A DNA stretch of 64,000 nt, taken from the NCBI GenBank assembly GCA_001897835.1, contig MKUN01000031.1, positions 1 through 64,000 on the forward strand, in the 5' to 3' direction. A program made the position numbers and the translations under genes. The stretch is from Bacteroidetes bacterium 46-16 (lineage in GTDB: Bacteria; Bacteroidota; Bacteroidia; Chitinophagales; Chitinophagaceae). Positions 10,226 through 43,096 of this stretch are shown here, piece by piece; position 1 is the first letter of the stretch, and each line of letters opens with the position of its first letter. The notes under the pieces are model-generated. The model made no database searches, had not been told where the DNA came from, and saw only the letters and a program-made list of their open reading frames with translations.

Positions 10226-11938
10226 ATGAGAAAGTTATTATTAATAGTCGCATTTGCTATCGCAAACTGCACCTCTTACGCGCAATTGCCCCTCGCGATT
10301 CCGGATACCTTGACCGGCACAACGATAAATTTAATAATGCATAAAGACAGTATATCAATACTGCCAGGAAAGAAAACCCAAACACTGGGTTATAATTCGT
10401 TTCATTACCTGGGACCAACGCTGATCTTGAACAGGAATACTGTCGTTAACATGAATGTCCAAAACAATATTGGTGATACTACTTCGGTTCATTGGCATGG
10501 CTTACATGTAGCCCCTACAAATGATGGGGGGCCTCATACGCCGATTTTGCCGTTAGCGACTTGGAGCCCTTCCTTCAAAGTAATGAATAATGCTGCGACC
10601 TACTGGTATCATCCGCACATACATATGAAGACAACAGAACAGGCAATGCTTGGAGCAGCAGGGCTAATCATTGTCCGCGATTCAACGGAGGCTTTATTGA
10701 ATCTGCCAAGAAGATACGGTGTGGATGATATACCGGTCATTGTACAATCCCAGCAACTAGATACGCTTAACCAGATTGACCCACGGGGAATGGTAGATAG
10801 TATTTTGTTGGTCAATGGCACGTTCAATCCCTATACGCCTCTACCGGCACAGGTGGTCCGTCTGCGTATATTAAATGCTGCAGGGGAACGTAATTTTAAT
10901 TTTGGGTTTACCGGTAATAAACCCTTTTATGTTATTGCTAATGACGATGGCCTTTTGTCAGCGCCTGTTTCTACCACACGAATTGTGCTGTCGCCTGGCG
11001 AACGTGCCGAAGTACTGCTTGATCTAACTGGCATGAACGGTCAGACGCTTTATTTGATGAGCTATGCCTCTGAATTCCCAATGGGCGTACAAGGCGGACC
11101 AACGATGCCTATGCCGCCCGGATTTCCTCCGATGAATAGCTCACTTAACGGAATTGACTTCAATATTTTGAAAATCAATGTAGGGCCACCAACAATCAGC
11201 CCGGTAACGACCATTCCTTCATCGTTGGTTACGGTAACACCTTATCCAGAGGGTACAGCAAGCACAACAAGGAATATTCATTTTACCGCAGATAGCTTTT
11301 TGGTAATGGATGGTCCCTTTTATTTTAATGACAGCTCCTTTGATATGATGCATGTGAATTATCACATACCATTAAACTCGACAGAAATATGGAGGTTTGT
11401 CAACGAAACAATGGTCGCCCATCCTTTTCATATTCATGATGTGCATTTTTTTATTCTGGACAGGAATGGCATACCTCCAGCTCCAAAGGAAAGTGGCGCC
11501 AAAGACGTTGTCCTTGTCGGTCCGGGAGATACAGTCAGGGTTATCATGAAATTTGAAGACTTCGCTGATACAACAACCCCTTATATGTATCACTGTCATA
11601 TATTAATGCACGAAGACGATGGCATGATGGGACAATTTGTAGTGACGCCCAATACCACCGGGATTAATAATGTAACAGGAGGAGAAGACCTATTAACCGT
11701 TTACCCTAATCCAGCTCTTGAAGCCTGGAATGTGCGATACCAATCAAAAGATGACGCCCTACTCGTTGAACTATATAACGTGACCGGGCAAAAAGTATTT
11801 TCTGAATACCGGATGCACATCCCGGGACAGTATGCCTTTCCGATAACTAATAAGTCATTGCCTGATGGCGTGTATATGCTCTTGTTACAGGATAAGAGCT
11901 CCCGACACTCAGTCCGGCTGATAAAGCAAGCTCATTAA
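10226..11938 (+). CDS. Multicopper oxidase with T9SS sorting domain
   Basis: 570 residues with a signal peptide (residues 1-19). Four multicopper oxidase copper-ligand motifs are visible: 'HWHGLHV', 'YWYHPHIH', 'HPFHIHDVHF' and 'YHCHILMHEDDGMMG', so the type 1 and trinuclear copper sites look complete. The last 85 residues form a type A sorting domain ('LLTVYPNPALEAWNV'), which should place the enzyme outside the cell or on its surface. Likely activity is oxidation of Cu(I) or other metals or organics with reduction of O2 to water. It sits in a run of three T9SS genes and near other copper genes, which favours a cuprous-oxidase role. Confidence 0.9.
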   Translation: MRKLLLIVAFAIANCTSYAQLPLAIPDTLTGTTINLIMHKDSISILPGKKTQTLGYNSFHYLGPTLILNRNTVVNMNVQNNIGDTTSVHWHGLHVAPTNDGGPHTPILPLATWSPSFKVMNNAATYWYHPHIHMKTTEQAMLGAAGLIIVRDSTEALLNLPRRYGVDDIPVIVQSQQLDTLNQIDPRGMVDSILLVNGTFNPYTPLPAQVVRLRILNAAGERNFNFGFTGNKPFYVIANDDGLLSAPVSTTRIVLSPGERAEVLLDLTGMNGQTLYLMSYASEFPMGVQGGPTMPMPPGFPPMNSSLNGIDFNILKINVGPPTISPVTTIPSSLVTVTPYPEGTASTTRNIHFTADSFLVMDGPFYFNDSSFDMMHVNYHIPLNSTEIWRFVNETMVAHPFHIHDVHFFILDRNGIPPAPKESGAKDVVLVGPGDTVRVIMKFEDFADTTTPYMYHCHILMHEDDGMMGQFVVTPNTTGINNVTGGEDLLTVYPNPALEAWNVRYQSKDDALLVELYNVTGQKVFSEYRMHIPGQYAFPITNKSLPDGVYMLLLQDKSSRHSVRLIKQAH

Positions 11939-19854: not shown

Positions 19855-19912
19855 CTGTAGGGAGTGCCATCAGTATATTTTATTTTGAAACTGTGGACTT
19901 TTGGCTGAGCTT

Positions 19913-20206
19913 ATGGAAAAACATGTTATAACAGATTTAAAGCATCTTACTGAAATAGCCGGGATTTTTAAAGCCATTGCTCATCCGGAACGCGTCGGTA
20001 TTATGCAGGTAATATATCGGGAGAAAAGGATAGCTGTAAAAGGAATTTATGAACGGTTGCGATTGCAGCAATCTGTGGTTTCCAGACATCTGGGCATACT
20101 CAGATCGGCAGGGGTAGTAAGGCGGGAGCAACAGGGACAAAAGATATATTACTGCCCCTGCTTTGATAACAAGACGTTACTGTGCTTGCCCAAATGCATT
20201 GTCTGA
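19913..20206 (+). CDS. ArsR-like winged-helix regulator, Cys-rich tail
   Basis: Start at ATG 19913, 97 residues. The fold is ArsR/SmtB-like: 'IFKAIAHPERVGIMQVI' then the recognition helix region 'QQSVVSRHLGILRSAGVV' and the beta wing 'RREQQGQKIYYCP'. The C-terminus carries four Cys ('CPCFDNKTLLCLPKC'), an unusual arrangement suggesting a metal-binding tail. It directly precedes the RND efflux operon, so it is probably its metal-responsive repressor. The DNA site and inducer are not determined; a palindrome at 19835-19854 is a candidate operator. Confidence 0.78.
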   Translation: MEKHVITDLKHLTEIAGIFKAIAHPERVGIMQVIYREKRIAVKGIYERLRLQQSVVSRHLGILRSAGVVRREQQGQKIYYCPCFDNKTLLCLPKCIV

Positions 20207-20262: not shown

Positions 20263-21552
20263 ATGATTGAAAAAATAGTCTCCTGGTCAATTCATAACCG
20301 CTTTTTTGTCTGGATAGGTATCCTGCTGATCGCTGTCGGGGGATTCTATTCCATTAAAGAAACCCCGATAGATGCGCTGCCTGACCTGAGTGAGAACCAG
20401 GTTATCATTTTTACCGAATACATGGGCCGTAATCCCAAAATAATAGAAGACCAGATCACTTATCCCCTGGTTTCAAATCTTCAGGGAATTCCTAAAATTA
20501 AATCCATTAGGGCTGCTTCCATGTTCGGGATGAGCTTCATTTTTGTGGTTTTTCAGGATGATGTAGACGTTTACTGGGCACGGACAAGGGTCTTGGAAAG
20601 ACTTAACTATGCGCAGAAATTTTTACCCCAGGGGATCACACCGAGTTTAGGTCCTGATGGTACCGGTCTGGGTCATGTTTATTGGTACACCCTGCATGGC
20701 AATGGATATAATTTGGGCGAGCTGAGGGCATTACAAGATTGGTATGTAAAATTTGCCTTGCAGAACGTGGAAGGTGTGAGCGAAGTAGCCTCCTTTGGTG
20801 GCTTTCAAAAGCAATACCAGGTAACCATAGACCCGAACAAACTTGTCTATTTCGGCATCCCGCTGATGGACGTTACGCGTGCGGTAACAGCAAATAATAA
20901 GGATGTTGGAGGAAGCCTGTATGAAATGAATGCAACAGGTTATCTGATAAGAGGACTAGGATATATCACTAACCTGGAGGATATACGCGACATTCCAATC
21001 GGAACCTATAAGTCTATCCCTGTAACCGTCGGTGATATCGCACAAGTACAAATGAGCCCGGACATCAGGCTGGGCATTGTCGATGAAAATGGAGAAGGTG
21101 AAGTAGTGGGCGGCATTGTCGTGATGCGTTATGGTGAGAATGCCAAAGACGTTATAGAACGTGTTAAAACGAGGATAAAAGATATCGAGAAGGGATTGCC
21201 GCCGGGTGTGACATTTAAGGCTGCATATGACCGCAGCGATTTGATAGAAGCCGCTATCGCTACTTTAAAAGATGCGCTATGGCAGGAAATATTAATTGTC
21301 TGCATAGTAGTTGTCCTATTTCTATTCAGCGTACGAAGCGGTATGGTGGCAATTATGTCCATCCTTTTATCCGTTCTGATCGGGTTTATTCTCATGAAGC
21401 TTTTTGGCGTTACCTCCAATATCATGTCGCTGGGTGGTATTGCCTTAGCCATTGGTGATGTCGTAGATCCCGGCATCGTCATGGCCGAAAATGCTTACCG
21501 GGCATTAACCAACCGCGTGTTAGACAATAATAAAAGCAATTCAAATGAATAA
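20263..21552 (+). CDS. CusA/CzcA-type RND pump, N-terminal half
   Basis: 429 residues covering the first half of a heavy-metal RND permease: TM1 ('FFVWIGILLIAVGGFY'), the porter domain, and TM2-TM4 ending in 'GGIALAIGDVVDPGIVMAEN', where the Asp of TM4 used for proton relay is present. It stops soon after TM4. The next ORF overlaps by 8 bases in another frame and continues with TM5 onward. Together they give about 1,070 residues, the normal length for CusA. Either the pump is made as two coupled polypeptides or there is a frameshift. Exports Cu(I)/Ag or another metal across the envelope. Confidence 0.85.
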   Translation: MIEKIVSWSIHNRFFVWIGILLIAVGGFYSIKETPIDALPDLSENQVIIFTEYMGRNPKIIEDQITYPLVSNLQGIPKIKSIRAASMFGMSFIFVVFQDDVDVYWARTRVLERLNYAQKFLPQGITPSLGPDGTGLGHVYWYTLHGNGYNLGELRALQDWYVKFALQNVEGVSEVASFGGFQKQYQVTIDPNKLVYFGIPLMDVTRAVTANNKDVGGSLYEMNATGYLIRGLGYITNLEDIRDIPIGTYKSIPVTVGDIAQVQMSPDIRLGIVDENGEGEVVGGIVVMRYGENAKDVIERVKTRIKDIEKGLPPGVTFKAAYDRSDLIEAAIATLKDALWQEILIVCIVVVLFLFSVRSGMVAIMSILLSVLIGFILMKLFGVTSNIMSLGGIALAIGDVVDPGIVMAENAYRALTNRVLDNNKSNSNE

Positions 21553-23470
21553 AGAGAGGATTGGACATACTAAAGAAATATCCGAAGAGGAACGTGTGAA
21601 GATCATTGAAAACTCTTCCCGGACGCTGGCGAGGTCTGTTTTCTTTTCTGTGATCATTATGATTATTTCATTTGCTCCCGTATTATTTCTTACTGGTCAG
21701 GAAAGGAAATTATTTTCTCCGCTGGTGCTCACAAAGACCTTTTCCCTGATAGGTGCCGCCATACTTGCTATAACTGTATCTCCCATGCTTACCCGCTCAT
21801 TTATGAAGGGCAGGCTTATTCCTGAAAGCAGGAATCCGGTTTCCAATTTCTTCGTGATCATCTATCGTCCCGTTGCAAGATGGTGCCTGAAGTCCCGTAA
21901 AACGGTCTTACTCATCTGCCTGGCTATTATCATTGGTAGTATCCCGCTCGTTCTGAACCTGGGGACAGAGTTTATGCCTCCCCTCGATGAAGGCTCTTTG
22001 TTGCTGATGCCCGTGACGTTACCGGATGTATCCAATTCAGAAGCCAAACGTATTACCCAATTACAAGACAAAATCATCAAAGGGTTTCCGGAAGTGGAAA
22101 ATGTACTCGGTAAAGCCGGACGTGCCTACACTGCAACCGATAACGCCCCTATCAGCATGATCGAAACGATAATCGTTTTAAAGCCTAAAAGCCAGTGGCG
22201 CGCTGGGATGACCAAAGAGAAGCTGATTAAGGAGATGAATGAAAAAGTTCAGATCCCCGGCGTGGTCGTAGGCTGGACACAGCCGATCATTAACCGTATC
22301 AATATGCTTTCCACCGGTATCAGGACGGATGTAGGCGTAAAGATATATGGGAAGAACCTGGACAGCATTTACCAGATCTCCCGCAGAGTTGAGGCAAGCC
22401 TGAAAGGGATTAACGGACTTGAAGACCTTTACGTGGAACAACTGACCGGCGGCAAATACCTGGATATAAAAATCAGGAGAAAAGATGCCCAACGGTATGG
22501 ACTGAATATCGATGATATTAACATGGTGATCGAAAGTGCTTTGGGAGGGATGATCCTGTCCAATACTGTTGAAGGCAGGGAGCGTTTCAATATAAACCTG
22601 CGGCTTGCCCAGGAATATCGTAACGATCTCGATGAAATAAAAAGGATTCCCATACAGTCCATGAAGTACGGCGTATTGCCATTATCGGCAGTTGCCGATA
22701 TTAAGGTTACAGAAGGCCCGCCCATGATCAATTCTGAAAACGCGATGCTGCGGGGCACCGTTCTCTTTAATGTTCGTGGCAGGGATATGGGTAGTGTGGT
22801 GAATGAAGCCAAAGAAAAGATTGAAAAGGCATTCAAGCAGCTTCCGCAGGGATATTATATTAACTGGAGCGGCCAGTATGAAAACCAGGTACGGGCACAG
22901 CAACGGTTAAAGGTGATCATTCCTATTGTAATGCTGATCATTGCTTTTATCCTTTACATGACTTTTCATTCCTTTAAAGAAGTGCTGGTCGTTTTTGTGA
23001 GCATCCCCGTTGCATTGATGGGCGGTGTGTACTCCCTGTATTTTTACCATGTCAACTTTTCCGTAGCTGTCGCAGTGGGCTTCATTGCTCTGTTTGGTGT
23101 TGCCGTAGAGACCGGGGTATTAATGATTGCCTATATGAATGATACGATAGGGAAAATGGTGTTGGAAAAGGGTAATAACAGGGACGTAATTCACCTGGAT
23201 GATCTTAAAGAAACAATCCTGTTTGGCGCAACGCAGCGTGTACGTCCCTTACTGATGACCGTCCTGGCGAACATTATCGGCTTAATACCGGTGATGGCAT
23301 CAACGGGAACCGGCAGCGATGTGATGAAACCGATAGCTATACCTTTTGTCTTCGGATTAATCACCTCTACTCTGTTTGTGCTGGTAGTGCTACCTGTAGT
23401 GTTTAACCTGCTGAAAGAATGGGAACTGAGAAAATATGGTAAACTGACCGTTTTAGAAATTGATGAATAA
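21545..23470 (+). CDS. CusA/CzcA-type RND pump, C-terminal half
   Basis: 641 residues. It begins 'MNKERIGHTKEISEEERVKI', the linker after TM4, then TM5-TM6, the second porter lobe ('WTQPIINRINMLSTGIRTDVGVKIYGKN' region) and TM7-TM12 with 'FGVAVETGVLMIAYMNDTI'. All parts expected of the CusA second half are present, so the two-ORF pump could work if both are made. The ATG lies in the sequence ATGAATAA that also contains the stop of the first half. The downstream TolC gene starts with exactly the same 11 bases, ATGAATAAAGA, overlapping the stop of this ORF in the same way. Confidence 0.87.
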   Translation: MNKERIGHTKEISEEERVKIIENSSRTLARSVFFSVIIMIISFAPVLFLTGQERKLFSPLVLTKTFSLIGAAILAITVSPMLTRSFMKGRLIPESRNPVSNFFVIIYRPVARWCLKSRKTVLLICLAIIIGSIPLVLNLGTEFMPPLDEGSLLLMPVTLPDVSNSEAKRITQLQDKIIKGFPEVENVLGKAGRAYTATDNAPISMIETIIVLKPKSQWRAGMTKEKLIKEMNEKVQIPGVVVGWTQPIINRINMLSTGIRTDVGVKIYGKNLDSIYQISRRVEASLKGINGLEDLYVEQLTGGKYLDIKIRRKDAQRYGLNIDDINMVIESALGGMILSNTVEGRERFNINLRLAQEYRNDLDEIKRIPIQSMKYGVLPLSAVADIKVTEGPPMINSENAMLRGTVLFNVRGRDMGSVVNEAKEKIEKAFKQLPQGYYINWSGQYENQVRAQQRLKVIIPIVMLIIAFILYMTFHSFKEVLVVFVSIPVALMGGVYSLYFYHVNFSVAVAVGFIALFGVAVETGVLMIAYMNDTIGKMVLEKGNNRDVIHLDDLKETILFGATQRVRPLLMTVLANIIGLIPVMASTGTGSDVMKPIAIPFVFGLITSTLFVLVVLPVVFNLLKEWELRKYGKLTVLEIDE

Positions 23471-24752
23471 AGAAATGAGCAAGACCTTAATTCTTATAAC
23501 ACTGATATTGACGACGACAATGCAATCGCTAGTCGCGCAGGATACTACCCATTTAAACCTGAACGAGATATATGTATTGATCGATAAGGATTATCCCCAG
23601 ATAAAATATTATGAAGCCAAGATACAATCGCTTCAGGCTATGGTTACAGGGGCTAAAGCATGGATGCCGCCTACTGTAGGCGCTGCATTCGACCAGTTTC
23701 CGTACAGGGTCTCCATGATTAAAGATCAGACTGTTGAAAATCAGGCAGGTCTTATGTTTTCGGTGAAACAAATGATACCTAATCCTGCCAGGCTTAATGC
23801 ACGGAAAGATTATCTTTCTTCGTTAAGTACTGTTCAAAAAAACGACCTGAACTGGCAAAAGAATCTGCTCTATTATACTGCCCGGGTATATTATTACCGG
23901 CGGTATGTTGGAGAGACCAAGCTGAGACTGCTCAAAGAATATAAAGAGCTGCTCAGCCTGCTGATTAAAAATGCTAAAGAGAAATATGCCTACAACCAGG
24001 CTGAGCTGGGGACTATTTTTAAAGCAGAAGCATCGCTGAGTGAGCTAAACAATATGGAATACATGTTGCTTTCACAAATAGCCGAGGGCAGCATTGGCAT
24101 CAATACTTTGCTTAACAGGGAGGTGAATACTCCTTTTTCAATTGACACATTCCTTGTAGTCGGGAATTATGATGCAGATTATGAGGTCTTCGCAGATACG
24201 ACCTTAAAAACAGACAGTTCCATTTTTCAACGCAGTGATATCCTGTCCGTTCAAAACCAGATACGCTCTATGGAACTGAACAGGAAATATGCGGCAACGG
24301 CAGCCAAGCCCGAATTTGGCATTCAGTACAACCATGGGCAAATGTTCGCTATGCCCAGCCGTTTTTCCCTGATGGGTATGGTCACCATACCCATAGCCCC
24401 TTGGTCGTCAAAAATGTATAAATCGGAAGTGCGTTCTATGGGTTTTGAGATTGAGGCCATGCAAAGGGAAAAGGAGACCATGCAGCTGATGGCTGGCCAG
24501 ATGCTTCGAGAAAAGATAACGATGCTGCATTATGAAAAAAAGCAGTTGGATAACTATGATAAAGAGGTGCTGCCATCCTATAAAAGGAATCTGGAAACGA
24601 ACCTGCTTGCCTACCGGCAGAATACCGGGAACTTCTTTGTGTTACTGGATGCGTGGAACATGTTACTTATGAAAGAGCTGGAACGGATAGATAAACTGGG
24701 ACAGGTATTTTTGATACAATCCGACTATGAATATCAAAGGGAGTTAAAATGA
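23463..24752 (+). CDS. TolC-family outer-membrane efflux protein
   Basis: Start at ATG 23463, 429 residues, overlapping the pump stop by 8 bases. It has a signal peptide ('LILITLILTTTMQSLVAQ') and the long helical hairpins of TolC/CusC-type channels ('YYTARVYYYRRYVGETKLRL', 'LLYYTARV'). No lipobox Cys is seen, unlike many CusC proteins. It forms the outer-membrane exit of the tripartite RND metal efflux system encoded here. Confidence 0.85.
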   Translation: MNKEMSKTLILITLILTTTMQSLVAQDTTHLNLNEIYVLIDKDYPQIKYYEAKIQSLQAMVTGAKAWMPPTVGAAFDQFPYRVSMIKDQTVENQAGLMFSVKQMIPNPARLNARKDYLSSLSTVQKNDLNWQKNLLYYTARVYYYRRYVGETKLRLLKEYKELLSLLIKNAKEKYAYNQAELGTIFKAEASLSELNNMEYMLLSQIAEGSIGINTLLNREVNTPFSIDTFLVVGNYDADYEVFADTTLKTDSSIFQRSDILSVQNQIRSMELNRKYAATAAKPEFGIQYNHGQMFAMPSRFSLMGMVTIPIAPWSSKMYKSEVRSMGFEIEAMQREKETMQLMAGQMLREKITMLHYEKKQLDNYDKEVLPSYKRNLETNLLAYRQNTGNFFVLLDAWNMLLMKELERIDKLGQVFLIQSDYEYQRELK

Positions 24753-25954
24753 TGAAACGAAATCAATATAACGGCAGTAGGAACGGTATCAAATGTATGG
24801 TACTGTTCCTGTCCTTGTCTATAATAAGCTGTTCATCCAGGCAACGGGAGCAAGCCGCTGTAAGCAACAAAAGATTTGATACAGAAGTAAAATGGAATGC
24901 CTTACCTACTAACCAAACCGTAATTGCGAAACAAAAAGTGGTGAGCCCAACCTTATCCCCGATCCGTCTGCCTATTTCAGGAAGCGGTTATATCAGCTTT
25001 GATGCCCGGAGAAATAAAAAGCTTGCAGTAAGAGTTGGAGGACGTATAGAGCGACTCTATGTTAAATACAATTTTCAATATATAAAGAAGGGCGAGAAGA
25101 TCATGGATATTTATAGTCCTGAACTCAATACTTACCTGGAAGAATATAACTACCTCAACAGAACCGGAGCGGATGCTGAACTGAAAGCAAAAGCACATGA
25201 AAAATTAACGCTTCTGGGCTTAAGCGACTTCCAGATCAGCCAGGTAGCCAGCTCTGGCACAGTTGGACTGACAATCCCAATATATAGTCCGTATGAAGGC
25301 TACATCTTATTTAATCCCTCTGAAACTGCCGGTAGTATGGGCCAAGCCGCTTCTTTGGCTATGGGACAGGGAATGGGAGGAAACGAACGGACTGTACCTG
25401 CACTATCAGGTAGCTCTTTAGCTGATAACAGTATCCGGGAAGGTATGTATGTTTCCAGGGACCAGACATTGTTCTGGATCAACGATTTTCGGCAAGTCTG
25501 GGGATTGGTCGCCTTCAGTAAGGAAAATGAAAAATACCTGCATAAAGGGATGCCTGTGAAAATACAAAGTGAATTACAGGCGGATACCATTGCAACATCG
25601 GTGCAGTTAATTGAACAGGTGTATGCACAAAGCCAAAAATTTACGCAAGCCCGCGTTTATCTGGACAATGATGGGCAATTAAAGCAAAATTCTTTAATAA
25701 CTGCTATCGGCTATGTGCAATCTGATGCCCTACTCGTCCCCTCAAGCAGTGTATACTATGTCGGAAGAAACGCTATTGTTTGGGTTAAGAAAGGAACCAC
25801 TACGGATGGTAGCGGCATTTTTGAGGCCAGGGCTGTGAAAACCGGTTACAGGGATGAACATTCTGTGGCGATACTGGAGGGACTGTCTGTGCAGGATAGC
25901 GTTGCAAATGATGGCGGATACATGGCAGATAGTGAAACAATTATTAAATATTAA
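24749..25954 (+). CDS. RND periplasmic adaptor, CusB-like lipoprotein 1
   Basis: 401 residues, overlapping the TolC gene by ATGA. The N-terminus ends in a lipobox ('LSLSIISC'), predicting an inner-membrane-anchored lipoprotein. It has barrel-sandwich (biotinyl-lipoyl-like) halves ('RVGGRIERLYVKYNFQYIKKG' and 'IPIYSPYEGYILF') around a helical hairpin, and a membrane-proximal domain. A Met/Gly-rich insert ('SMGQAASLAMGQGMGG') may bind copper. It links the RND pump to the outer-membrane channel. A second adaptor gene follows. Confidence 0.85.
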   Translation: MMKRNQYNGSRNGIKCMVLFLSLSIISCSSRQREQAAVSNKRFDTEVKWNALPTNQTVIAKQKVVSPTLSPIRLPISGSGYISFDARRNKKLAVRVGGRIERLYVKYNFQYIKKGEKIMDIYSPELNTYLEEYNYLNRTGADAELKAKAHEKLTLLGLSDFQISQVASSGTVGLTIPIYSPYEGYILFNPSETAGSMGQAASLAMGQGMGGNERTVPALSGSSLADNSIREGMYVSRDQTLFWINDFRQVWGLVAFSKENEKYLHKGMPVKIQSELQADTIATSVQLIEQVYAQSQKFTQARVYLDNDGQLKQNSLITAIGYVQSDALLVPSSSVYYVGRNAIVWVKKGTTTDGSGIFEARAVKTGYRDEHSVAILEGLSVQDSVANDGGYMADSETIIKY

Positions 25955-25963
25955 GTGTACAAA

Positions 25964-27076
25964 ATGAAGAAAGGGCTCTATTTTTCTTGGTTCGTTCTGT
26001 CATCATTCATTACGGTCTCCTGCAATGAAAACAAAGACGAAGACATGCACCTGGCACATCGCAAACAGGGCTCCATGGATATGATTACGCTTTCCGGTTG
26101 GGATGAATTATATGCCGGCATTAAAACGGACACTGTGAGAAAAAAGGAAATTTCCGAATCGTCATCGATTGTCGGAACAGCAGCTTTTGACGAACAAAAA
26201 ATAACTGTAGTAACGGCAAGGTTCAGGGGAAGGCTTGATAAAGTTTATGTCAAAAACCCTCAACAATATATTGGCAAAGGACAACCTCTTTATGCTATCT
26301 ATAGCGAAGAGCTGTTGTCCGATGAAAAGGAGCTGATTGATGCTTTGGAACAGCAGGGGAAATTTAATACCATAAAACAAGTAATTGATGAGTTGATCAA
26401 CGGTGCCAGGAAAAAGCTATTGTTATGGGGACTGACACCTGATCAGATTACTGCACTTGAAAAGACAAAGAAAACCAGTCCGCTGGTGGATTTCTATAGT
26501 CCTGTATCAGGTACGGTCGTTGAGTTGTCCGTAAGCGAAGGACAATACGTGGATGCAGGCACTTTGCTGTACCGGATTGCCGATCTGTCCGGACTCTGGG
26601 TAGAGACACAGGTATACGCTGATGAATTAAAATGGCTGAAGCAGAAACCACAGGTGCAAATTGAGTTTGACGCCTATCCGGGTGAACTGTTCAATGCCCA
26701 ACCAGTATTTGAGAACCCAGCGCTGGAAACAGATCAGAAAATAAGCCTGATAAGGTTTCTCATCGATAACCGGGAAAACCGGATCAAACCGGGGATGATG
26801 GGCTACGTTCATGTTAACAGGAACGAACGCGAGACAATTGTGATCCCGAAATCTTCTATTCTGGTAGGCGACATGGTGACCGTGTGGGTCAAAACGATGG
26901 ACAATATGTATGAGCCAAGGAACATAATGATAGGCATTCAAAACAAGAAAGAAGTAGAGGTGCTCAGTGGTTTACAGGAAGGTGAAATAGTGGTAACAAA
27001 TGGGGCTTACCTGCTGAACAGTGCGCTGATCCTCAAGAAAGGCGCAGGCGGTGATATGGGCGGAATGAAAATGTAA
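25964..27076 (+). CDS. RND periplasmic adaptor, CusB-like lipoprotein 2
   Basis: Start at ATG 25964 rather than GTG 25955, 370 residues. Lipobox 'SSFITVSC', then His/Met-containing 'EDMHLAHRKQGSMDM', lipoyl-like halves ('RFRGRLDKVYVKNPQQYIGKG', 'DFYSPVSGTVVEL') and beta-barrel/membrane-proximal parts; the C-terminus is Gly/Met-rich ('GAGGDMGGMKM'). It is homologous in layout to the preceding adaptor but clearly divergent. Two adaptors in one operon suggest a heteromeric adaptor ring or two metal specificities. Confidence 0.85.
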   Translation: MKKGLYFSWFVLSSFITVSCNENKDEDMHLAHRKQGSMDMITLSGWDELYAGIKTDTVRKKEISESSSIVGTAAFDEQKITVVTARFRGRLDKVYVKNPQQYIGKGQPLYAIYSEELLSDEKELIDALEQQGKFNTIKQVIDELINGARKKLLLWGLTPDQITALEKTKKTSPLVDFYSPVSGTVVELSVSEGQYVDAGTLLYRIADLSGLWVETQVYADELKWLKQKPQVQIEFDAYPGELFNAQPVFENPALETDQKISLIRFLIDNRENRIKPGMMGYVHVNRNERETIVIPKSSILVGDMVTVWVKTMDNMYEPRNIMIGIQNKKEVEVLSGLQEGEIVVTNGAYLLNSALILKKGAGGDMGGMKM

Positions 27077-27619: not shown

Positions 27620-30322
27620 ATGCGCTATATGGAATCTAATAATTTAAAAGCCGCCTGGTCTGTTTCTAAAGAGGCCATTATACAATACTTCCAGACCGAT
27701 CCTGAAATTGGGCTCGACGCTGCGGAAGTAATAAAAAGACAACAACAATACGGACTCAATAAAATTGAGTCAAAAAAGAAAACAAGCCTTTTCAGTATTC
27801 TCTTATCACAGTTTATAAGCCCGTTCGTGCTTTTACTGGCTATCGCTGCGGGTATGTCTTTTTTCTTTGATGAATGGCTGGATGGTATTGCGATCATAGC
27901 CGTCATTGTCATCAACGCCATTATCGGGTTTTTCATGGAATTTCAGGCAGAGCGTTCCATGGAGGCATTAAAGAAGCTGACATCTGTTCCTGCTAAAGTG
28001 ATCAGAGAAGGTGTGATGGCGGAGATCCCGTCAGAAGCGTTAGTGCCTGGCGATATCATGTTTGTAGAAGGGGGAGATATGGTTACTGCCGATGCCAGGA
28101 TTATTCAGGCATCGCAATTACAAACTGATGAATCAGCACTCACCGGAGAATCATTACCGGTTGAAAAAAGGCCGGAACCAGTTGCCGATAATACGCTGCT
28201 GGCCGAGCGGCACAACATGGTTTTTAAAGGTACTTTTGTTGCAAAAGGTAACTGTCGTTCTGTTGTAGTGCATACAGGGATGAATACAGAACTTGGTTCG
28301 GTTGCCCGCCTGGTACAGGGTGCTAATCAGGCCGCCACCCCTTTAGAGAAGAAAATCCAGGTTTTCAGCAAGAAGCTGATCTGGATAACGGTCGCTTTAA
28401 TTATCATCATTTTCGTAGCCGGACTGCTAAACGGGCAAAAATTTGTTGTCATGCTGGAAACATCTATTGCACTAGCCGTTGCCGCGATACCGGAAGGGCT
28501 GCCTATCGTCTCTACATTGGCGCTGGCTTTTGGTATGCTCAGGATGGCCAGGTATAATGTAATCGTTAAAAAGCTCTCGTCCGTTGAAACGCTGGGGGGA
28601 ACAAATGTTATTTGCACAGACAAGACAGGAACACTTACTGTGAACAAAATTGAAGCAAGCTATATTCAGCTTTCAGACAAGGCTTCCCGCATTGCCATAG
28701 ACATTGCGGCAGGGACGACCAAATGGATAGACGATGCGCAGGTTCCAACGGATGCAGCGTACGAACACTTATGCCGTATATCAGCTTTATGTAACACAGC
28801 ATCCTATCTGAATGAGAACGGAATAGAAAAGGAAACCGGCGATCCGCTGGAAATCGGGTTATTAAAAATGATCTTTGCCTCCCCCAAACGAAAAGAAAAT
28901 TATGTACAACAACACCTTAAAATAGATGAGATCCCCTTTTCTTCCGATACCAAGGTAATGGCTACGCTTCATGCGCAGGCTGATGGGCGCTATTATATTG
29001 CAGCAAAAGGGGCTGCCGAAGAATTATTTGCTCATTGCACCAGGGTTTTAGAAGATGGGCAGGAACTACCGTTTACAGAGGACAAACAGCAACATTGGGT
29101 TAACCTGGCAGAGATACATGCGCAATCGGGATTAAGGATGCTGGCATTTGCATACAGGAACGCAGATGTTAAAGAAAGCGGCTTTTTAAATGATCTTACA
29201 TTGGCCGGACTTATTGGCTTCATCGATCCTCCCAGGCAGGAAGTACCTGCAGCCATTGCGGAATGTAAATCTGCGGGAATAAAAGTGGTCATGATTACAG
29301 GCGACCATCCAGCCACAGCCCAAAATATCGCTTTACAGTTAGGGTTGGCAGAACCGGGAGACAAAGTAATGCATGGTAAAGACATGAAGCCATATAAAGA
29401 GCTTTCAGAAAGTGACAAAGAACAATGGCTCCATTCCGCTGTATTTGCCCGGGTATCTCCCGAACAAAAACTTGATCTTATAACGCTATTCCAGGAAAAG
29501 CAAATGGTAGTAGGCATGACCGGAGATGGTGTTAATGATGCCCCTGCACTAAAAAAAGCAGATATAGGAATTGCAATGGGGCAAAGGGGTACGCAAGTGG
29601 CGCAGGAAGTAGCGGACATGGTTTTGAAAGACGATGCATTTTCATCCATTGTACTGGCTGTTAAACAAGGTCGCGTGATCTTTGACAATATCCGGAAATT
29701 TGTGATCTTTTTGCTGTCATGTAACTTAAGTGAGCTATTGATCATCGCCACAGCTTCCGTACTGAACTTACATTTTCAGCTATTTCCACTACAGATACTA
29801 TTCATCAATCTCATCACCGATGTTTTACCGGCATTGGCATTGGGTGTAACGGAACCAGCTCCGCACATCATGCAACGGCAACCCTACAGCTCAGATACCC
29901 CGGTCATTGACAGAAAAAGATGGTATGCGATATTTGCCTATTCTACCATCATAGCCATTATAACGATAGGGGCTGTGTTCGCCAGTCATGAGCTATTGCA
30001 TAAAGATGAAAAATGGAATGCGGAACTCTGCAATAATATCCTCTTTTACTCTTTGATCTTTACACAGATATTCCATGTGTTTAATATGTCGTTTGAAAAA
30101 GGTGTCAGGTTTTATAAGACAGAAGTTTTCAGAAGCAAATATGTCTGGTATGCCGTTGTAAGTTGCATTGTCCTCACACTGCTTTCTTATTGGATACTGC
30201 CGTTGAGAAAAGTCCTTGAAGTCTCTATTTACGGCTGGAGGGACTGGAGTATTGTCCTGATTGCATCGCTGAGTTCTTTATTATTGATTCAAATCTTCAA
30301 GAAACTTAAGTTGACCATTTAG
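27620..30322 (+). CDS. Cation-translocating P2-type ATPase
   Basis: 900 residues, with cation_ATPase_N at the start, the actuator motif 'LTGESLPVEK', the M4 motif 'VAAIPEGLPIVSTLALAFG', the phosphorylation site 'DKTGTLTVN' (Asp near 334), and the hinge 'MTGDGVNDAPALKKADIGIAMG'. The PEGLP signature and lack of a CPC/CPH motif place it in the P2 group (Ca, Mn, Na/K-like), not the P1B heavy-metal group. It sits 17 bases after the DUF5676 gene, so it may be part of the efflux operon. Substrate cannot be fixed from sequence. Confidence 0.88.
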   Translation: MRYMESNNLKAAWSVSKEAIIQYFQTDPEIGLDAAEVIKRQQQYGLNKIESKKKTSLFSILLSQFISPFVLLLAIAAGMSFFFDEWLDGIAIIAVIVINAIIGFFMEFQAERSMEALKKLTSVPAKVIREGVMAEIPSEALVPGDIMFVEGGDMVTADARIIQASQLQTDESALTGESLPVEKRPEPVADNTLLAERHNMVFKGTFVAKGNCRSVVVHTGMNTELGSVARLVQGANQAATPLEKKIQVFSKKLIWITVALIIIIFVAGLLNGQKFVVMLETSIALAVAAIPEGLPIVSTLALAFGMLRMARYNVIVKKLSSVETLGGTNVICTDKTGTLTVNKIEASYIQLSDKASRIAIDIAAGTTKWIDDAQVPTDAAYEHLCRISALCNTASYLNENGIEKETGDPLEIGLLKMIFASPKRKENYVQQHLKIDEIPFSSDTKVMATLHAQADGRYYIAAKGAAEELFAHCTRVLEDGQELPFTEDKQQHWVNLAEIHAQSGLRMLAFAYRNADVKESGFLNDLTLAGLIGFIDPPRQEVPAAIAECKSAGIKVVMITGDHPATAQNIALQLGLAEPGDKVMHGKDMKPYKELSESDKEQWLHSAVFARVSPEQKLDLITLFQEKQMVVGMTGDGVNDAPALKKADIGIAMGQRGTQVAQEVADMVLKDDAFSSIVLAVKQGRVIFDNIRKFVIFLLSCNLSELLIIATASVLNLHFQLFPLQILFINLITDVLPALALGVTEPAPHIMQRQPYSSDTPVIDRKRWYAIFAYSTIIAIITIGAVFASHELLHKDEKWNAELCNNILFYSLIFTQIFHVFNMSFEKGVRFYKTEVFRSKYVWYAVVSCIVLTLLSYWILPLRKVLEVSIYGWRDWSIVLIASLSSLLLIQIFKKLKLTI

Positions 30323-37302: not shown

Positions 37303-37331
37303 CCGGTAATTCCACAGGAAGGAATTACCGG
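37303..37331. terminator. Perfect 11-bp hairpin
   Basis: CCGGTAATTCC pairs with GGAATTACCGG around the loop ACAGGAA. It lies between the HYC_CC_PP gene and the first DUF3347 gene. There is no T tract immediately after it, so it may be a terminator for the first or an operator for the second. Confidence 0.5.
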
Positions 37332-37366
37332 TGCATGGATTACCTAACAATAAAATTATTTTCTTA

Positions 37367-37972
37367 ATGAACTTCTCAATCAAAGCCGCACTATCAGCAA
37401 CGATAATACTGATTAGTGCTTCCTGTGGGAACGGGAATAATAAAAATAACGAGACAGCTCAGGATGCAACTTCGGCTATTAATATGGACGATGTTGCCAT
37501 CATAAAACCGTCTATCACTAATGCCGATCAGTTACTCACAAAACAAATTGACGGTATTTACAATAGTTACCTGCAGGTGCAATCCGCGCTTGCCGCAGAT
37601 CAGTTCTCAAAAGCATCTGTTGCCGCCAATGAGCTGAATACAGTGCTGAGCGATTTTAAAGACAGTACAATGCCGGAAAACCAAAAGCAGGCGTACGAAA
37701 CGCATATATCTGCGATCAGGGAAAGTGCGAACAAGATTGTTAACAGCAAAAATATTGAACAGCAACGGATATCGTTTGAACCCTTGTCCACGCATGTATT
37801 CGACCTTTTAAAATCGTTCGGAAGTAATAAGCCGGTATATGAAACCCATTGCTCTATGGCATTTGACAATAAAGGGGCAAGCTGGCTTAGTGACCAACCT
37901 GTAATACGAAATCCATATTACGGCAATAAAATGCTGGAATGTGGTGAAGTGATGTCCGTTATTAAAAAGTAA
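37367..37972 (+). CDS. DUF3347 lipoprotein, copy 1
   Basis: Start at ATG 37367, 201 residues, lipobox 'ILISASC'. A helical DUF3347 domain of about 150 residues follows ('LLTKQIDGIYNSYLQVQSAL'). It ends with a conserved Cys/Met segment: 'YETHCSMAFDNKGASWLS' and 'NPYYGNKMLECGEV'. DUF3347 occurs alone and at the end of CusB-type adaptors in Bacteroidota; the C...M...C residues suggest copper binding. It begins a run with an HMA protein and two more DUF3347 copies. Confidence 0.82.
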   Translation: MNFSIKAALSATIILISASCGNGNNKNNETAQDATSAINMDDVAIIKPSITNADQLLTKQIDGIYNSYLQVQSALAADQFSKASVAANELNTVLSDFKDSTMPENQKQAYETHISAIRESANKIVNSKNIEQQRISFEPLSTHVFDLLKSFGSNKPVYETHCSMAFDNKGASWLSDQPVIRNPYYGNKMLECGEVMSVIKK

Positions 37973-38005
37973 AAAAGCATTATCAAACGATAAAAATTCT
38001 TAAAA

Positions 38006-38500
38006 ATGAAAAAACTCCTTTTTGTAATTGCCATGATCATTTCGGTGTCTTCTTTTGCACAAATTAAATCCGTAAGCCTTACGGCCAGCGGTTTGACATG
38101 TAGTATGTGCAGCAAGGCCATTTATAAATCACTTACAAAAATCCCTGATATCCAGGACATAGATGTTGATATCAAAAACTCAAGCTATCGCATCACATTT
38201 AGAGAGGGCAAAAATGTATCATTAGATGCCATAAGAAAAGCCGTGGAAAATGCAGGCTTCTCTGTAGCATCACTGAAAGTAACAGCGAACTTCACCAAAA
38301 CAGCGGTCGGACCTGACTCCCCCATATCACTGCAAGGCGGTACTTACCTTTTCGTCAGGACACCGAGGCAAACTATCGAGGGTACACAGACTTTTACAGT
38401 GGTAGATAAAAATTACCTGCCTGCAAATGAGCATAAGAAATATGCTAAAGAAATTGCCATGCAAACGTCTAAAGAGAATGTGTACCACGTGATTTTATAA
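38006..38500 (+). CDS. Exported HMA-domain (copper chaperone-like) protein
   Basis: 164 residues. Signal peptide (residues 1-19, 'MIISVSSFAQ'), then an HMA fold with the metal-binding motif 'SGLTCSMCSKAIYKSL' (Cys 32 and 35) and the end of the fold 'AIRKAVENAGFSVASL'. About 70 further residues follow, of unknown fold. Because it is exported, it would act as a periplasmic metal carrier rather than as a cytoplasmic CopZ. It lies between DUF3347 copy 1 and an outer-membrane-like protein, all closely spaced. Confidence 0.82.
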   Translation: MKKLLFVIAMIISVSSFAQIKSVSLTASGLTCSMCSKAIYKSLTKIPDIQDIDVDIKNSSYRITFREGKNVSLDAIRKAVENAGFSVASLKVTANFTKTAVGPDSPISLQGGTYLFVRTPRQTIEGTQTFTVVDKNYLPANEHKKYAKEIAMQTSKENVYHVIL

Positions 38501-38512
38501 TAACCGCTGAAT

Positions 38513-39337
38513 ATGGAATTTTTCTTTAGAAAGTTATTTCTGGTAGGTGCTATAGCAATAAGTACGAACCATGCCAATGGACAGGAGCTATTTGTCTTTA
38601 CCGAACCGGCCAGCAATATGCCCGCTAAATCTATAGGCATCAGAATTGGCAACTGGATTATGGAGGATCAGCGGAACAGTTCAATTAACTATCACCTTAT
38701 CCCCGAGTTGATGTGGGGGGTGAACAGAAGGCTTATGATACACGTAGAAGGTTTTGCGAGTAACCGTAACAAAAGTTTTTCGGCTGAAGGAGGCGCGTTG
38801 TATGTTAAATACCGATTCTTTAGTAAAGACCGTGTATATCGCCATTTCAGGATGGCCGCATTGGGTAGAATTGCAGTTAACAATAGCGACATCCACCAGG
38901 ACGAGATAGAAACCAATGGGCATAATTCGGGTTTTGAAGGCGGCATTATCGCAACGCAACTGCTGCACAAACAAGCGATCTCTGCGACGATCAGTTACGA
39001 ACAGGCTACTAACAATGCCGGTGGCAACGAATTCCCTCAATTGCAGGCAAACAAAGCAATCAATTATGCCTTGTCAACAGGAAGGCTGGTGTTGCCCAAA
39101 GACTACACGGATTACGGACAAATGAACCTCAATGTCATGGTAGAGTTACTGGGGCAGTACCTTCCCGAGAACAGGAAAACATATCTGGATGCGACGGTTT
39201 CCATGCAATTTATATTTAACAGCCAATTCAGGGTGGATGTAGGGTATAAAAGGGAATTATACAACAACATGCTACGCACGGCGCCAAACGGCTTCCTGAT
39301 AAGGATTGAACATCTGTTATTCAACACTTTCAAATAA
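38513..39337 (+). CDS. Outer-membrane beta-barrel-like protein
   Basis: 274 residues, with a signal peptide ('FLVGAIAISTNHANG') and alternating beta strands ('GALYVKYRFFSKDRVYRHFRM', 'QFRVDVGYKRELY'), ending in an aromatic residue pattern ('RIEHLLFNTFK'). This suggests a small outer-membrane beta-barrel. 12 bases separate it from the HMA gene. The family is unknown to me. In this operon it may be a passive metal exit or a docking protein, which is inference. Confidence 0.65.
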   Translation: MEFFFRKLFLVGAIAISTNHANGQELFVFTEPASNMPAKSIGIRIGNWIMEDQRNSSINYHLIPELMWGVNRRLMIHVEGFASNRNKSFSAEGGALYVKYRFFSKDRVYRHFRMAALGRIAVNNSDIHQDEIETNGHNSGFEGGIIATQLLHKQAISATISYEQATNNAGGNEFPQLQANKAINYALSTGRLVLPKDYTDYGQMNLNVMVELLGQYLPENRKTYLDATVSMQFIFNSQFRVDVGYKRELYNNMLRTAPNGFLIRIEHLLFNTFK

Positions 39338-39370
39338 GTCAATCTCATTTAAAACGCAAAAAACAGAATA

Positions 39371-39895
39371 ATGAAAAAAAATATCATCGTAGTACTTCTT
39401 TGCATTTTTGCCGTTATTGCATCGGCACAAACGAAAAATGCGGACGTTCCCCAACAACAGGAACAATCCGTTAAAATATCAGCAGACCAACTGTTGGGTG
39501 CCTATTATGGCATTAAGGATGCCCTTGTTAACGGCTCCGGCATTCAGGCATCCGCAAAGGCTACCTCTTTTCATGAAGCCTTAAAGACAGTAGACCAAAG
39601 CGCGTTTAATGAAAAGGAACGCGCAGCTTTTATGGCTTTAAAACCAAAGCTGGCTGATGAAGCCCAAAAGATAGCCGTGTCAAAGGCGGTTGAAGAACAA
39701 AGATCCGTATTCGCCTCCCTCTCAGGCAATATGTGGGAACTTCTGAAATCGTTCGGCCATTTCGATCAACCGGTTTATAAACAATATTGCCCTATGAAGA
39801 AGGTCTATTGGGTCAGCGGGGAGACAAACATTAAAAACCCTTACTATGGAAAACAAATGCTGACCTGTGGTAAAACAACAGAAACAATCCAATAA
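39371..39895 (+). CDS. DUF3347 exported protein, copy 2
   Basis: 174 residues with a cleavable signal peptide ('LLCIFAVIASAQ') and no lipobox Cys. The DUF3347 helical domain ends with 'YKQYCPMKKVYWVS' and 'NPYYGKQMLTCGKT', the same Cys/Met elements as copies 1 and 3. It is probably periplasmic and soluble, whereas the other two copies are lipoproteins. Confidence 0.82.
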   Translation: MKKNIIVVLLCIFAVIASAQTKNADVPQQQEQSVKISADQLLGAYYGIKDALVNGSGIQASAKATSFHEALKTVDQSAFNEKERAAFMALKPKLADEAQKIAVSKAVEEQRSVFASLSGNMWELLKSFGHFDQPVYKQYCPMKKVYWVSGETNIKNPYYGKQMLTCGKTTETIQ

Positions 39896-39921
39896 TTTAA
39901 TAACGCACAAACTTCAAAAAA

Positions 39922-40500
39922 ATGAAAAGAATCCTTTTAAGTGCAACGTCAGTGCTGGCGCTATTTACGGCCTGCAATAATAACAGTTCGGAAAAGACCG
40001 CTGAATCCACTACCGTTAAGGACAGCAGTGTCACCAGTTCATCTGCCGCTACTGTTCCGGTAGCAGCATCCTCTATTAAAGGAATTATAGATGGCTACCT
40101 GCATTTGAAAAATGCACTGGCTACTGATGATGGAAATGCAGCGGCAACGGCAGGAAGTGATATTTTGACTGCCATGCAGTCGGTCGATATGAACCAAATG
40201 GATGAAGCTAAACACAAAGCGTATATGTCAGTTGCCGACGATATTAAAGAGAATGCAGAACACATCAACGCAAACGCAGGTAAAATTGCTCACCAGAGAG
40301 AACATTTTGAAATGTTGAGCAAGGACATATATGATTTGGTCAAAGCTTTTGGCGCAGGCACCACCCTCTACAAGGATTTCTGCCCCATGGCTTTTGATCA
40401 GAAAGGTGCTTTTTGGCTGAGTGAAACCAAAGACATAAAAAACCCCTATTTCGGAAAGGAAATGCCGGAATGCGGAGAGGTAAAAGAAGAGCTTAAATGA
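39922..40500 (+). CDS. DUF3347 lipoprotein, copy 3
   Basis: 192 residues, lipobox 'VLALFTAC', a Ser/Thr-rich linker, then a DUF3347 domain ending 'YKDFCPMAFDQKGAFWLS' and 'NPYFGKEMPECGEV'. It is close to copy 1 in its end motif, pointing to local duplication. It overlaps the heme protein gene by ATGA, so translation is coupled. Confidence 0.82.
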   Translation: MKRILLSATSVLALFTACNNNSSEKTAESTTVKDSSVTSSSAATVPVAASSIKGIIDGYLHLKNALATDDGNAAATAGSDILTAMQSVDMNQMDEAKHKAYMSVADDIKENAEHINANAGKIAHQREHFEMLSKDIYDLVKAFGAGTTLYKDFCPMAFDQKGAFWLSETKDIKNPYFGKEMPECGEVKEELK

Positions 40501-41053: not shown

Positions 41054-43096
41054 ATGGAAGATCAACACAAAGGAAACAACAGCCATGCAGGTCACGATAT
41101 GGGGCACATGCATCATAGTGTTAACCCCAGGATGGGCATGGCTGGCCATGACCACCATGCGATGATGATCGCTGATTTCAGAAAAAGGTTTTATGTGGTA
41201 TTGGTGCTAACAGTCCCCATAATGCTCCTGTCCACTATGATACAGCACTTCATGGGCGTACAATGGCAATTCCCTGGTGCACAGTACATCCTGTTCGCCC
41301 TATCGAGTATTGTCTTTTTTTATGGCGGCTGGCCATTCCTTAAAGGCCTGGCAGACGAAGTGAAATCAAAGAATCCAGGTATGATGTTCCTGATTGGATT
41401 TGCCATAACTGTAGCTTACGCATATAGTGTGGCAATAGTGTTTGGGTTGGAAGGAATGGACTTTTTTTGGGAGCTGGCCACCCTGATCCTTATTATGCTT
41501 TTGGGGCATTGGATAGAAATGAAATCTGTCGCAGGCGCATCGAAAGAATTGGAATTGTTAGTGCAATTAATGCCTGCCGAGGCACATATGGTTATGCCAG
41601 GCATGGTACACGATGTAAAAACAGATACGCTGAAAGAAAATGATATTATCCTCGTAAAGCCTGGCGAAAAGGTGGCTGCAGACGGTATAATACTGGAAGG
41701 AGACAGTTATCTCAATGAAAGTATGCTTACTGGTGAATCAAAACCGGTACAAAAAATAAAGGGTGACAAGGTCATTGCTGGATCAATAAATGGGAATGGC
41801 TCGATAAAGGTCACGGTATCCCATACCGCGAAAGATTCTTATCTGTCTCAGGTCGTTAAGCTGGTAGATGATGCGCAAAAATCAAAATCAAAAACGCAGT
41901 TGCTGGCCGATACTGCCGCAAGATGGCTGACGGTCATTGCGCTGGTCACCGGGGTCGGTACATTTTTATATTGGTATTTTACCGGCCAGTCCCTGGCTTT
42001 CGCTATGGAGCGAATGGTAACGGTCATTGTTATCTGTTGTCCGCATGCGCTTGGTCTGGCAGTTCCACTGGTGGTTGCAAAATCAACGGCCTTATCCGCC
42101 AAGAATGGATTACTGATCAAGAACAGGACAGCCTTTGAAAATGCACGTAAGATAAGCACCATTGTATTTGATAAAACCGGCACATTGACGGTAGGTAAAT
42201 TTGAGGTGTCAAAAATTGTAGCATTACAGCAAGGTATTACTGAAAAAGAGGTTGTTCGACTGGCATCAGCGCTGGAACAGCAATCAGAACACCCTATTGC
42301 AACAGGCATCCTTCAAAAAGCTAAGGATCTGTCTGTCACCATTCCGGCAGCGGAGAACTTCCAGGCAATCACCGGTAAAGGTGTGGAAGCTACTGTAGAA
42401 GGTAAAATGGTACGTGTTGTCAGTCCAGGATATTTAAAGGTCAGCAGTTTGTCCATTCCTGCGGGCTTCACTGCCAATGATACTGAAACCGTTGTGTTTA
42501 TAATCGTTGATGACCACCTTGCAGGCTACATTGCTTTGTCGGATGAAATCAGAACGGAATCATTCAGTGCAATCAAGACCCTGAAAGAAAATCATATCAA
42601 ATCCATTTTACTTACAGGCGATAACGCAAAAGTAGCAAAGAGCGTCAGTGCAACATTGGGAATGGACAGCTTCATCGCCGAAGTATTGCCACATCAGAAA
42701 CTGGAAAAAATAAAAGAGCTGCAAAGTAAAGGCGAGTTTGTAGCCATGACTGGTGATGGTGTGAATGATGCGCCGGCATTGGCAGTTGCCGATATTGGTA
42801 TTGCGGTAGGCAGCGGTAGCGATATTGCTGCTGAAACTGCGGGGATCGTTTTAGTAAACAGCAACCCTAAAGATGTAGTCAGCTTAATATTGTTTGGCAA
42901 AGCTACCTATCGCAAAATGATACAGAATTTGATCTGGGCAACTGGCTACAACGTAATTGCGCTTCCACTGGCTGCGGGTATATTGTATAAACAAGGCATT
43001 TTATTAAGCCCCGCTGCCGGTGCCGTTTTAATGACCGTAAGTACAGTGGTGGTTGCCATCAATGCCAGTATGCTCAAAGTAAAAAAGTCAACCTGA
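41054..43096 (+). CDS. copB: Copper-translocating P1B-type ATPase (CopB-like)
   Basis: 680 residues. A His/Met-rich N-terminus ('HAGHDMGHMHHSVNPRMGM') replaces the usual HMA domains. Six to eight membrane spans follow, with the transport motif 'VICCPHALGLAVPLVV' (CPH type), the phosphorylation site 'DKTGTLTVG' (Asp near 373), 'SEHPIATGILQKA' and 'GDGVNDAPALAVADIGIAVG'. CPH plus a His-rich start indicates the P1B-3/CopB group, exporting copper or silver from the cytoplasm. Confidence 0.92.
   Translation: MEDQHKGNNSHAGHDMGHMHHSVNPRMGMAGHDHHAMMIADFRKRFYVVLVLTVPIMLLSTMIQHFMGVQWQFPGAQYILFALSSIVFFYGGWPFLKGLADEVKSKNPGMMFLIGFAITVAYAYSVAIVFGLEGMDFFWELATLILIMLLGHWIEMKSVAGASKELELLVQLMPAEAHMVMPGMVHDVKTDTLKENDIILVKPGEKVAADGIILEGDSYLNESMLTGESKPVQKIKGDKVIAGSINGNGSIKVTVSHTAKDSYLSQVVKLVDDAQKSKSKTQLLADTAARWLTVIALVTGVGTFLYWYFTGQSLAFAMERMVTVIVICCPHALGLAVPLVVAKSTALSAKNGLLIKNRTAFENARKISTIVFDKTGTLTVGKFEVSKIVALQQGITEKEVVRLASALEQQSEHPIATGILQKAKDLSVTIPAAENFQAITGKGVEATVEGKMVRVVSPGYLKVSSLSIPAGFTANDTETVVFIIVDDHLAGYIALSDEIRTESFSAIKTLKENHIKSILLTGDNAKVAKSVSATLGMDSFIAEVLPHQKLEKIKELQSKGEFVAMTGDGVNDAPALAVADIGIAVGSGSDIAAETAGIVLVNSNPKDVVSLILFGKATYRKMIQNLIWATGYNVIALPLAAGILYKQGILLSPAAGAVLMTVSTVVVAINASMLKVKKST

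Follow-up and report, generated by a model that had tools for sequence, protein, structure and literature searches.

RND pumps of the CusA and AcrB type are regarded as trimers of three identical copies of a single long chain. The best solved relative of the pump described here is the HME-RND permease CusA of the Escherichia coli CusCBA system, whose methionine triad (M573, M623, and M672) is its known Cu(I)/Ag(I) site; Met clusters of CusA have been noted (PMC8277102). Our pump resembles CusA over the whole length of the sequence, in the Met triad, R669, D405, and E939, and in an operon with a TolC-like channel and a CusB-like adaptor. CusA is one chain of 1047 amino acids with one adaptor and CusRS, whereas the pump here is divided after TM4 into two chains and has a second adaptor, an ArsR-type regulator, and a replacement at K984. 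Like SecD/SecF, also of the RND superfamily, it is an RND-type transporter of two polypeptides, although SecDF divides six plus six transmembrane (TM) helices at the repeat boundary (PMC8277102) and the split here is four plus eight, inside the first repeat. MdtBC, like the split pump, is an RND trimer that requires two different gene products (PMC8277102), but both MdtB and MdtC are permeases of full length, whereas each product of the split pump is only part of one protomer. TriABC shares with the split-pump operon the two adaptor genes per RND pump (PMC8277102); TriC, however, is a single-chain drug pump, unlike the two-chain metal pump here. NolGHI of Rhizobium meliloti is an RND permease that carries a several-gene name and is described as a single gene (PMC8277102), and is thus not a natural split. 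A literature search limited to open-licence papers found no description of an RND permease that is split in nature in this way, which leaves novelty unproven.

The window (the whole 64,000-nucleotide stretch of contig MKUN01000031.1 from Bacteroidetes bacterium 46-16 that was analysed) encodes the permease as ORF1 (429 amino acids) and ORF2 (641 amino acids) in different frames. A TolC family gene and two CusB-like adaptor genes lie beside it, as in a tripartite metal efflux operon. The features are as follows.

19901..20206, + strand: ArsR/SmtB-type metalloregulator, upstream of the pump (NF033788, above the curated cut-off)
20263..21552, + strand: ORF1, the N-half, with TM1, the first periplasmic domain, TM2-TM4, and the equivalents of CusA D405, M391, and M410 (profile match and CusA alignment)
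21545..21552, + strand: N-half/C-half start/stop overlap ATGAATAA
21545..23470, + strand: ORF2, the C-half, with TM5-TM12, the second periplasmic domain, and the equivalents of CusA M573, M623, M672, and E939 (profile match and CusA alignment)
23463..23470, + strand: start/stop overlap ATGAATAA of the C-half and TolC genes
23463..24752, + strand: TolC/CusC-type outer-membrane factor (PF02321)
24749..25954, + strand: periplasmic adaptor 1 (CusB-like, MFP1; PF16576)
25955..27076, + strand: periplasmic adaptor 2 (CusB-like, MFP2; TIGR01730 above the cut-off, PF16576)

The family profile TIGR00914 is covered completely by consecutive parts, positions 1-424 by ORF1 and 428-1036 by ORF2. The two ORFs also match consecutive parts of PF00873 and of E. 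coli CusA, confirming the original prediction that two ORFs in different frames cover a full CusA. Each alone scores below the curated cut-off of 701.45 (465.5 for ORF1, 624.7 for ORF2), and in place of the single chain of about 1050 residues and 12 TM helices expected of TIGR00914, we find 429 and 641 residues with four and eight helices. In the alignment to E. coli CusA, the break falls after about residue 426, in the loop between TM4 and TM5, with TM1-4 in ORF1 and TM5-12 in ORF2; a hydropathy scan backs the eight segments of ORF2. The TM4-TM5 loop of RND pumps is cytoplasmic, and therefore both new ends, the C-terminus of the N-half and the N-terminus of the C-half, should face the cytoplasm. 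The cut is inside the first six-helix repeat and not at the pseudo-symmetry boundary between TM6 and TM7, where a SecD/SecF-type division would lie. AlphaFold models of each half alone were of low confidence (pLDDT 61 and 64) and were given no evidential use.

It had been noticed before that the overlap at the split is identical to that between the pump and the TolC gene and that AGA follows both. This is correct, as ATGAATAA occupies 21545-21552 and 23463-23470 with AGA directly 3' of each. Within the window, the 11-mer ATGAATAAAGA occurs at these two sites only, whereas ATGAATAA occurs seven times. The weight placed earlier on this identity did not hold. Both overlaps are present in the closest relative (L014, 95% amino acid identity), the only one to share ATGAATAAAGA, whereas relatives at 82-88% identity have other junctions, with the ATG at +1, +6, +11, +12, or +14 from the ORF1 stop. 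The ATGAATAAAGA repeat was dropped as a functional signal; it is incidental, and what is kept among relatives is the split and the tight spacing. Termination-reinitiation at the ORF1/ORF2 junction is plausible, but it is not essential to the system because other members have separate, distant, or reordered genes.

Homologues of ORF1 number 131 in 299 genomes of the same family. Counting as split any homologue with an open frame of at most 500 amino acids, 128 of the 131 are split at the same cytoplasmic loop, and the other three have about 1060 amino acids. The C-half lies on the same contig and strand in 117 of the 128, with a median of 68 nt between match ends. A phylum-wide search found that several families within the same class have the split, as do two families farther away (G483 and G499). 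The other, more distant relatives found, at about 48-58% identity, each have one chain of about 1030-1220 amino acids, except for a few that are ended by contig ends or read into neighbours. The same two genes are present on closed plasmids of Pontibacter actiniarum, Runella slithyformis, Adhaeribacter swui, Mucilaginibacter robiniae, and Haliscomenobacter hydrossis, where both are annotated as 'efflux RND transporter permease subunits'; Pelobacter carries a single long gene. Several genomes carry two or three split pumps. The original prediction had proposed looking for the same split in related genomes and would have been abandoned had all close homologues been single ORFs; the outcome is the opposite, and the split is found in more than 100 related Bacteroidota genomes. 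In loci L015-L019 (Flavihumibacter, Terrimonas, and other Chitinophagaceae), the split-pump junction is identical in DNA and the protein nearly identical to that of the window, a likeness that suggests recent horizontal spread.

Trees were calculated for the two halves joined and for each half by itself; CusA served as root, and the outgroup L033 was left out. All split copies form one clade (support 99-100, branch 0.18-0.27, four state changes), best read as a single fission at its base. The single clade and the few state changes rule out that the splits are independent accidents. Three intact copies (L089, L091, and L092) are nested at separate places within the split clade. Forcing them outside it costs 855 units of lnL (p-AU 3e-62), which rules them out as retained ancestors. 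They are best read as re-fusions, in frame and with the same order of halves, and at the junction of L092 the end of a split-type N-half and the beginning of a split-type C-half are both still present. Two operons, L131 (2504-9595) and L132 (4231-11020), have the order C-half, TolC, adaptor 1, adaptor 2, N-half; as they sit inside the split clade, they were rearranged after the fission. Two adaptors are present in all split-clade operons that could be seen far enough, re-fused copies included, whereas intact Bacteroidota outgroups with an adaptor detected near the pump have one adaptor type only (the adaptor beside the second pump in L138 was left out of this count). Adaptor duplication seems to go with the fission (24749-27076 in the window; L131, L132) and to persist in the re-fused copies (L134-L136).

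The residues that define the CusA metal site and proton relay are spread over both chains. In CusA numbering, the equivalents of M573, M623, R669, and M672 in the C-half and of D405 and M410 in the N-half are present in 48 of 48 split rows, that of E939 in 46, and that of K984 in 37. The Met triad is kept in the window and in all intact rows too, and so does not discriminate split from intact pumps. Its retention makes export of copper or silver the likely role, judged from sequence. The proton-relay equivalents of D405, E939, and K984 in the window are D, E, and L; leucine replaces K984 in 10 of the 48 split rows, and the proton relay may therefore differ. Three further genes of the window, assigned by motif only, are relevant.

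10226-11938: multicopper oxidase-like ORF
27620-30322: P-type ATPase, after the pump operon
41054-43096: His-rich CopB-like P-type ATPase

These neighbours agree with a copper/silver role, and in other genomes the split-pump operon lies next to a gene for a copper P-type ATPase or a multicopper oxidase. Near the copper ATPase, the window also encodes three similar small secreted proteins (37331-40500) with the pattern 'SFG/AFG...Y..yCPM...G..WlS....i.NPYYG..M..CG', which perhaps bind copper.

The two chains might act separately, as different transporters or half-transporters that never form a joint protomer, and the operons in which the halves are not adjacent would allow this. We consider it very improbable. 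With the proton-relay aspartate (D405) on one chain, E939 and the Met triad on the other, and the cut within the first repeat, transport by either half by itself is not expected. The halves are nearly always together in one operon, and three lineages have rejoined them in frame and in the same order. The mirror-tree correlation of the halves (r = 0.89) is expected for linked genes and is weak evidence of contact.

Since the ORFs are adjacent and often overlap in one operon, a full-length pump could in principle be made from both by programmed frameshift or stop read-through. Across 56 tabulated split junctions, however, the frame of the C-half with respect to the N-half is 0 in 17, +1 in 20, and +2 in 19, so that the conserved frame that marks a programmed frameshift is not seen. 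The nearest ATG of the C-half is mostly at -14 to +36 nt from the stop of the N-half, with one gap of 620 nt; some of the 56 junctions come from near-identical loci, so that gaps and frames are not counted from wholly independent cases. The C-half also has its own variable N-terminus, ranging from MNKERIGH to cationic leaders such as MKRIKKIFKKP and MKKLFNKLRGKK, and the leader is net positive in 34 of the 44 cases that could be delimited. In L133 (1550-7516, minus strand), a P-type ATPase gene (920 amino acids, 2.8 kb) lies between the N-half and the C-half with short overlaps at both ends. Where the halves are parted in this way, or reordered as in L131 and L132, one translation product is impossible. 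We therefore give a frameshift or read-through product very little credence. The N-half and C-half are two separately coded polypeptides, inherited as such.

A sequencing or assembly error, in which a frame change is introduced artificially into an ordinary one-ORF pump, usually looks just like two ORFs in different frames over a complete family profile. The split, however, recurs in more than 100 independently sequenced genomes and on closed type-strain plasmids, the frame relation takes all three values, and some gene orders are rearranged, all of which makes an error scarcely credible. Equally remote is a decaying pseudogene inactivated by the break, as purifying selection is strong on both halves and similar between them (dN/dS 0.013-0.063 wherever computable and not saturated, over high synonymous divergence) with no sign of relaxation, functional residues are invariant, and the split is kept across orders. 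Individual copies can decay; in Hymenobacter sp. HDW8 (L013:3001-5023), the C-half is in further pieces and the copy is probably decayed.

We conclude that the locus very probably encodes an obligate two-subunit HME-RND (CusA-type) efflux permease of the Cu(I)/Ag(I) type. The original prediction of a real two-polypeptide RND pump with a break between TM4 and TM5 is borne out by the conservation across the family, the three frames, the separated halves, the single clade with re-fusions, and the purifying selection. An ancestral one-chain pump would have undergone one cut, in the cytoplasmic loop between TM4 and TM5, at an early stage of a Bacteroidota lineage. The N-half (four TM helices and the first periplasmic domain) and the C-half (eight TM helices and the second) would since have been made separately, usually from closely spaced or overlapping cistrons, and translational coupling would give similar amounts of both chains. 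The two chains would then join in the inner membrane as one RND protomer, and the trimer would presumably be built from three pairs of N-half and C-half. This trimer is predicted to dock with TolC and with both CusB-like adaptors, and the proton gradient would drive its export of Cu(I)/Ag(I).

More speculatively, the split may be functional rather than a neutral relic. Each free half could be controlled or swapped on its own, for instance by mixing among co-resident split pumps; the cationic and often amphipathic leader of the C-half could be a membrane anchor that orients TM5 and guides assembly; and the fission could have coincided with the adaptor duplication. We think this reading rather unlikely; if true, the system would be a five-gene, doubly heteromeric pump.

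For annotation, split RND permeases in Bacteroidota are not to be taken as errors or pseudogenes. The split pump offers a ready system in which folding, insertion, and subunit assembly of RND pumps can be tested, and natural controls for the effect of the split exist in the three copies that were re-fused and the two operons with changed gene order. An old and widely inherited two-chain RND pump, cut inside a six-helix repeat, would mean that an RND protomer can form from parts in nature.
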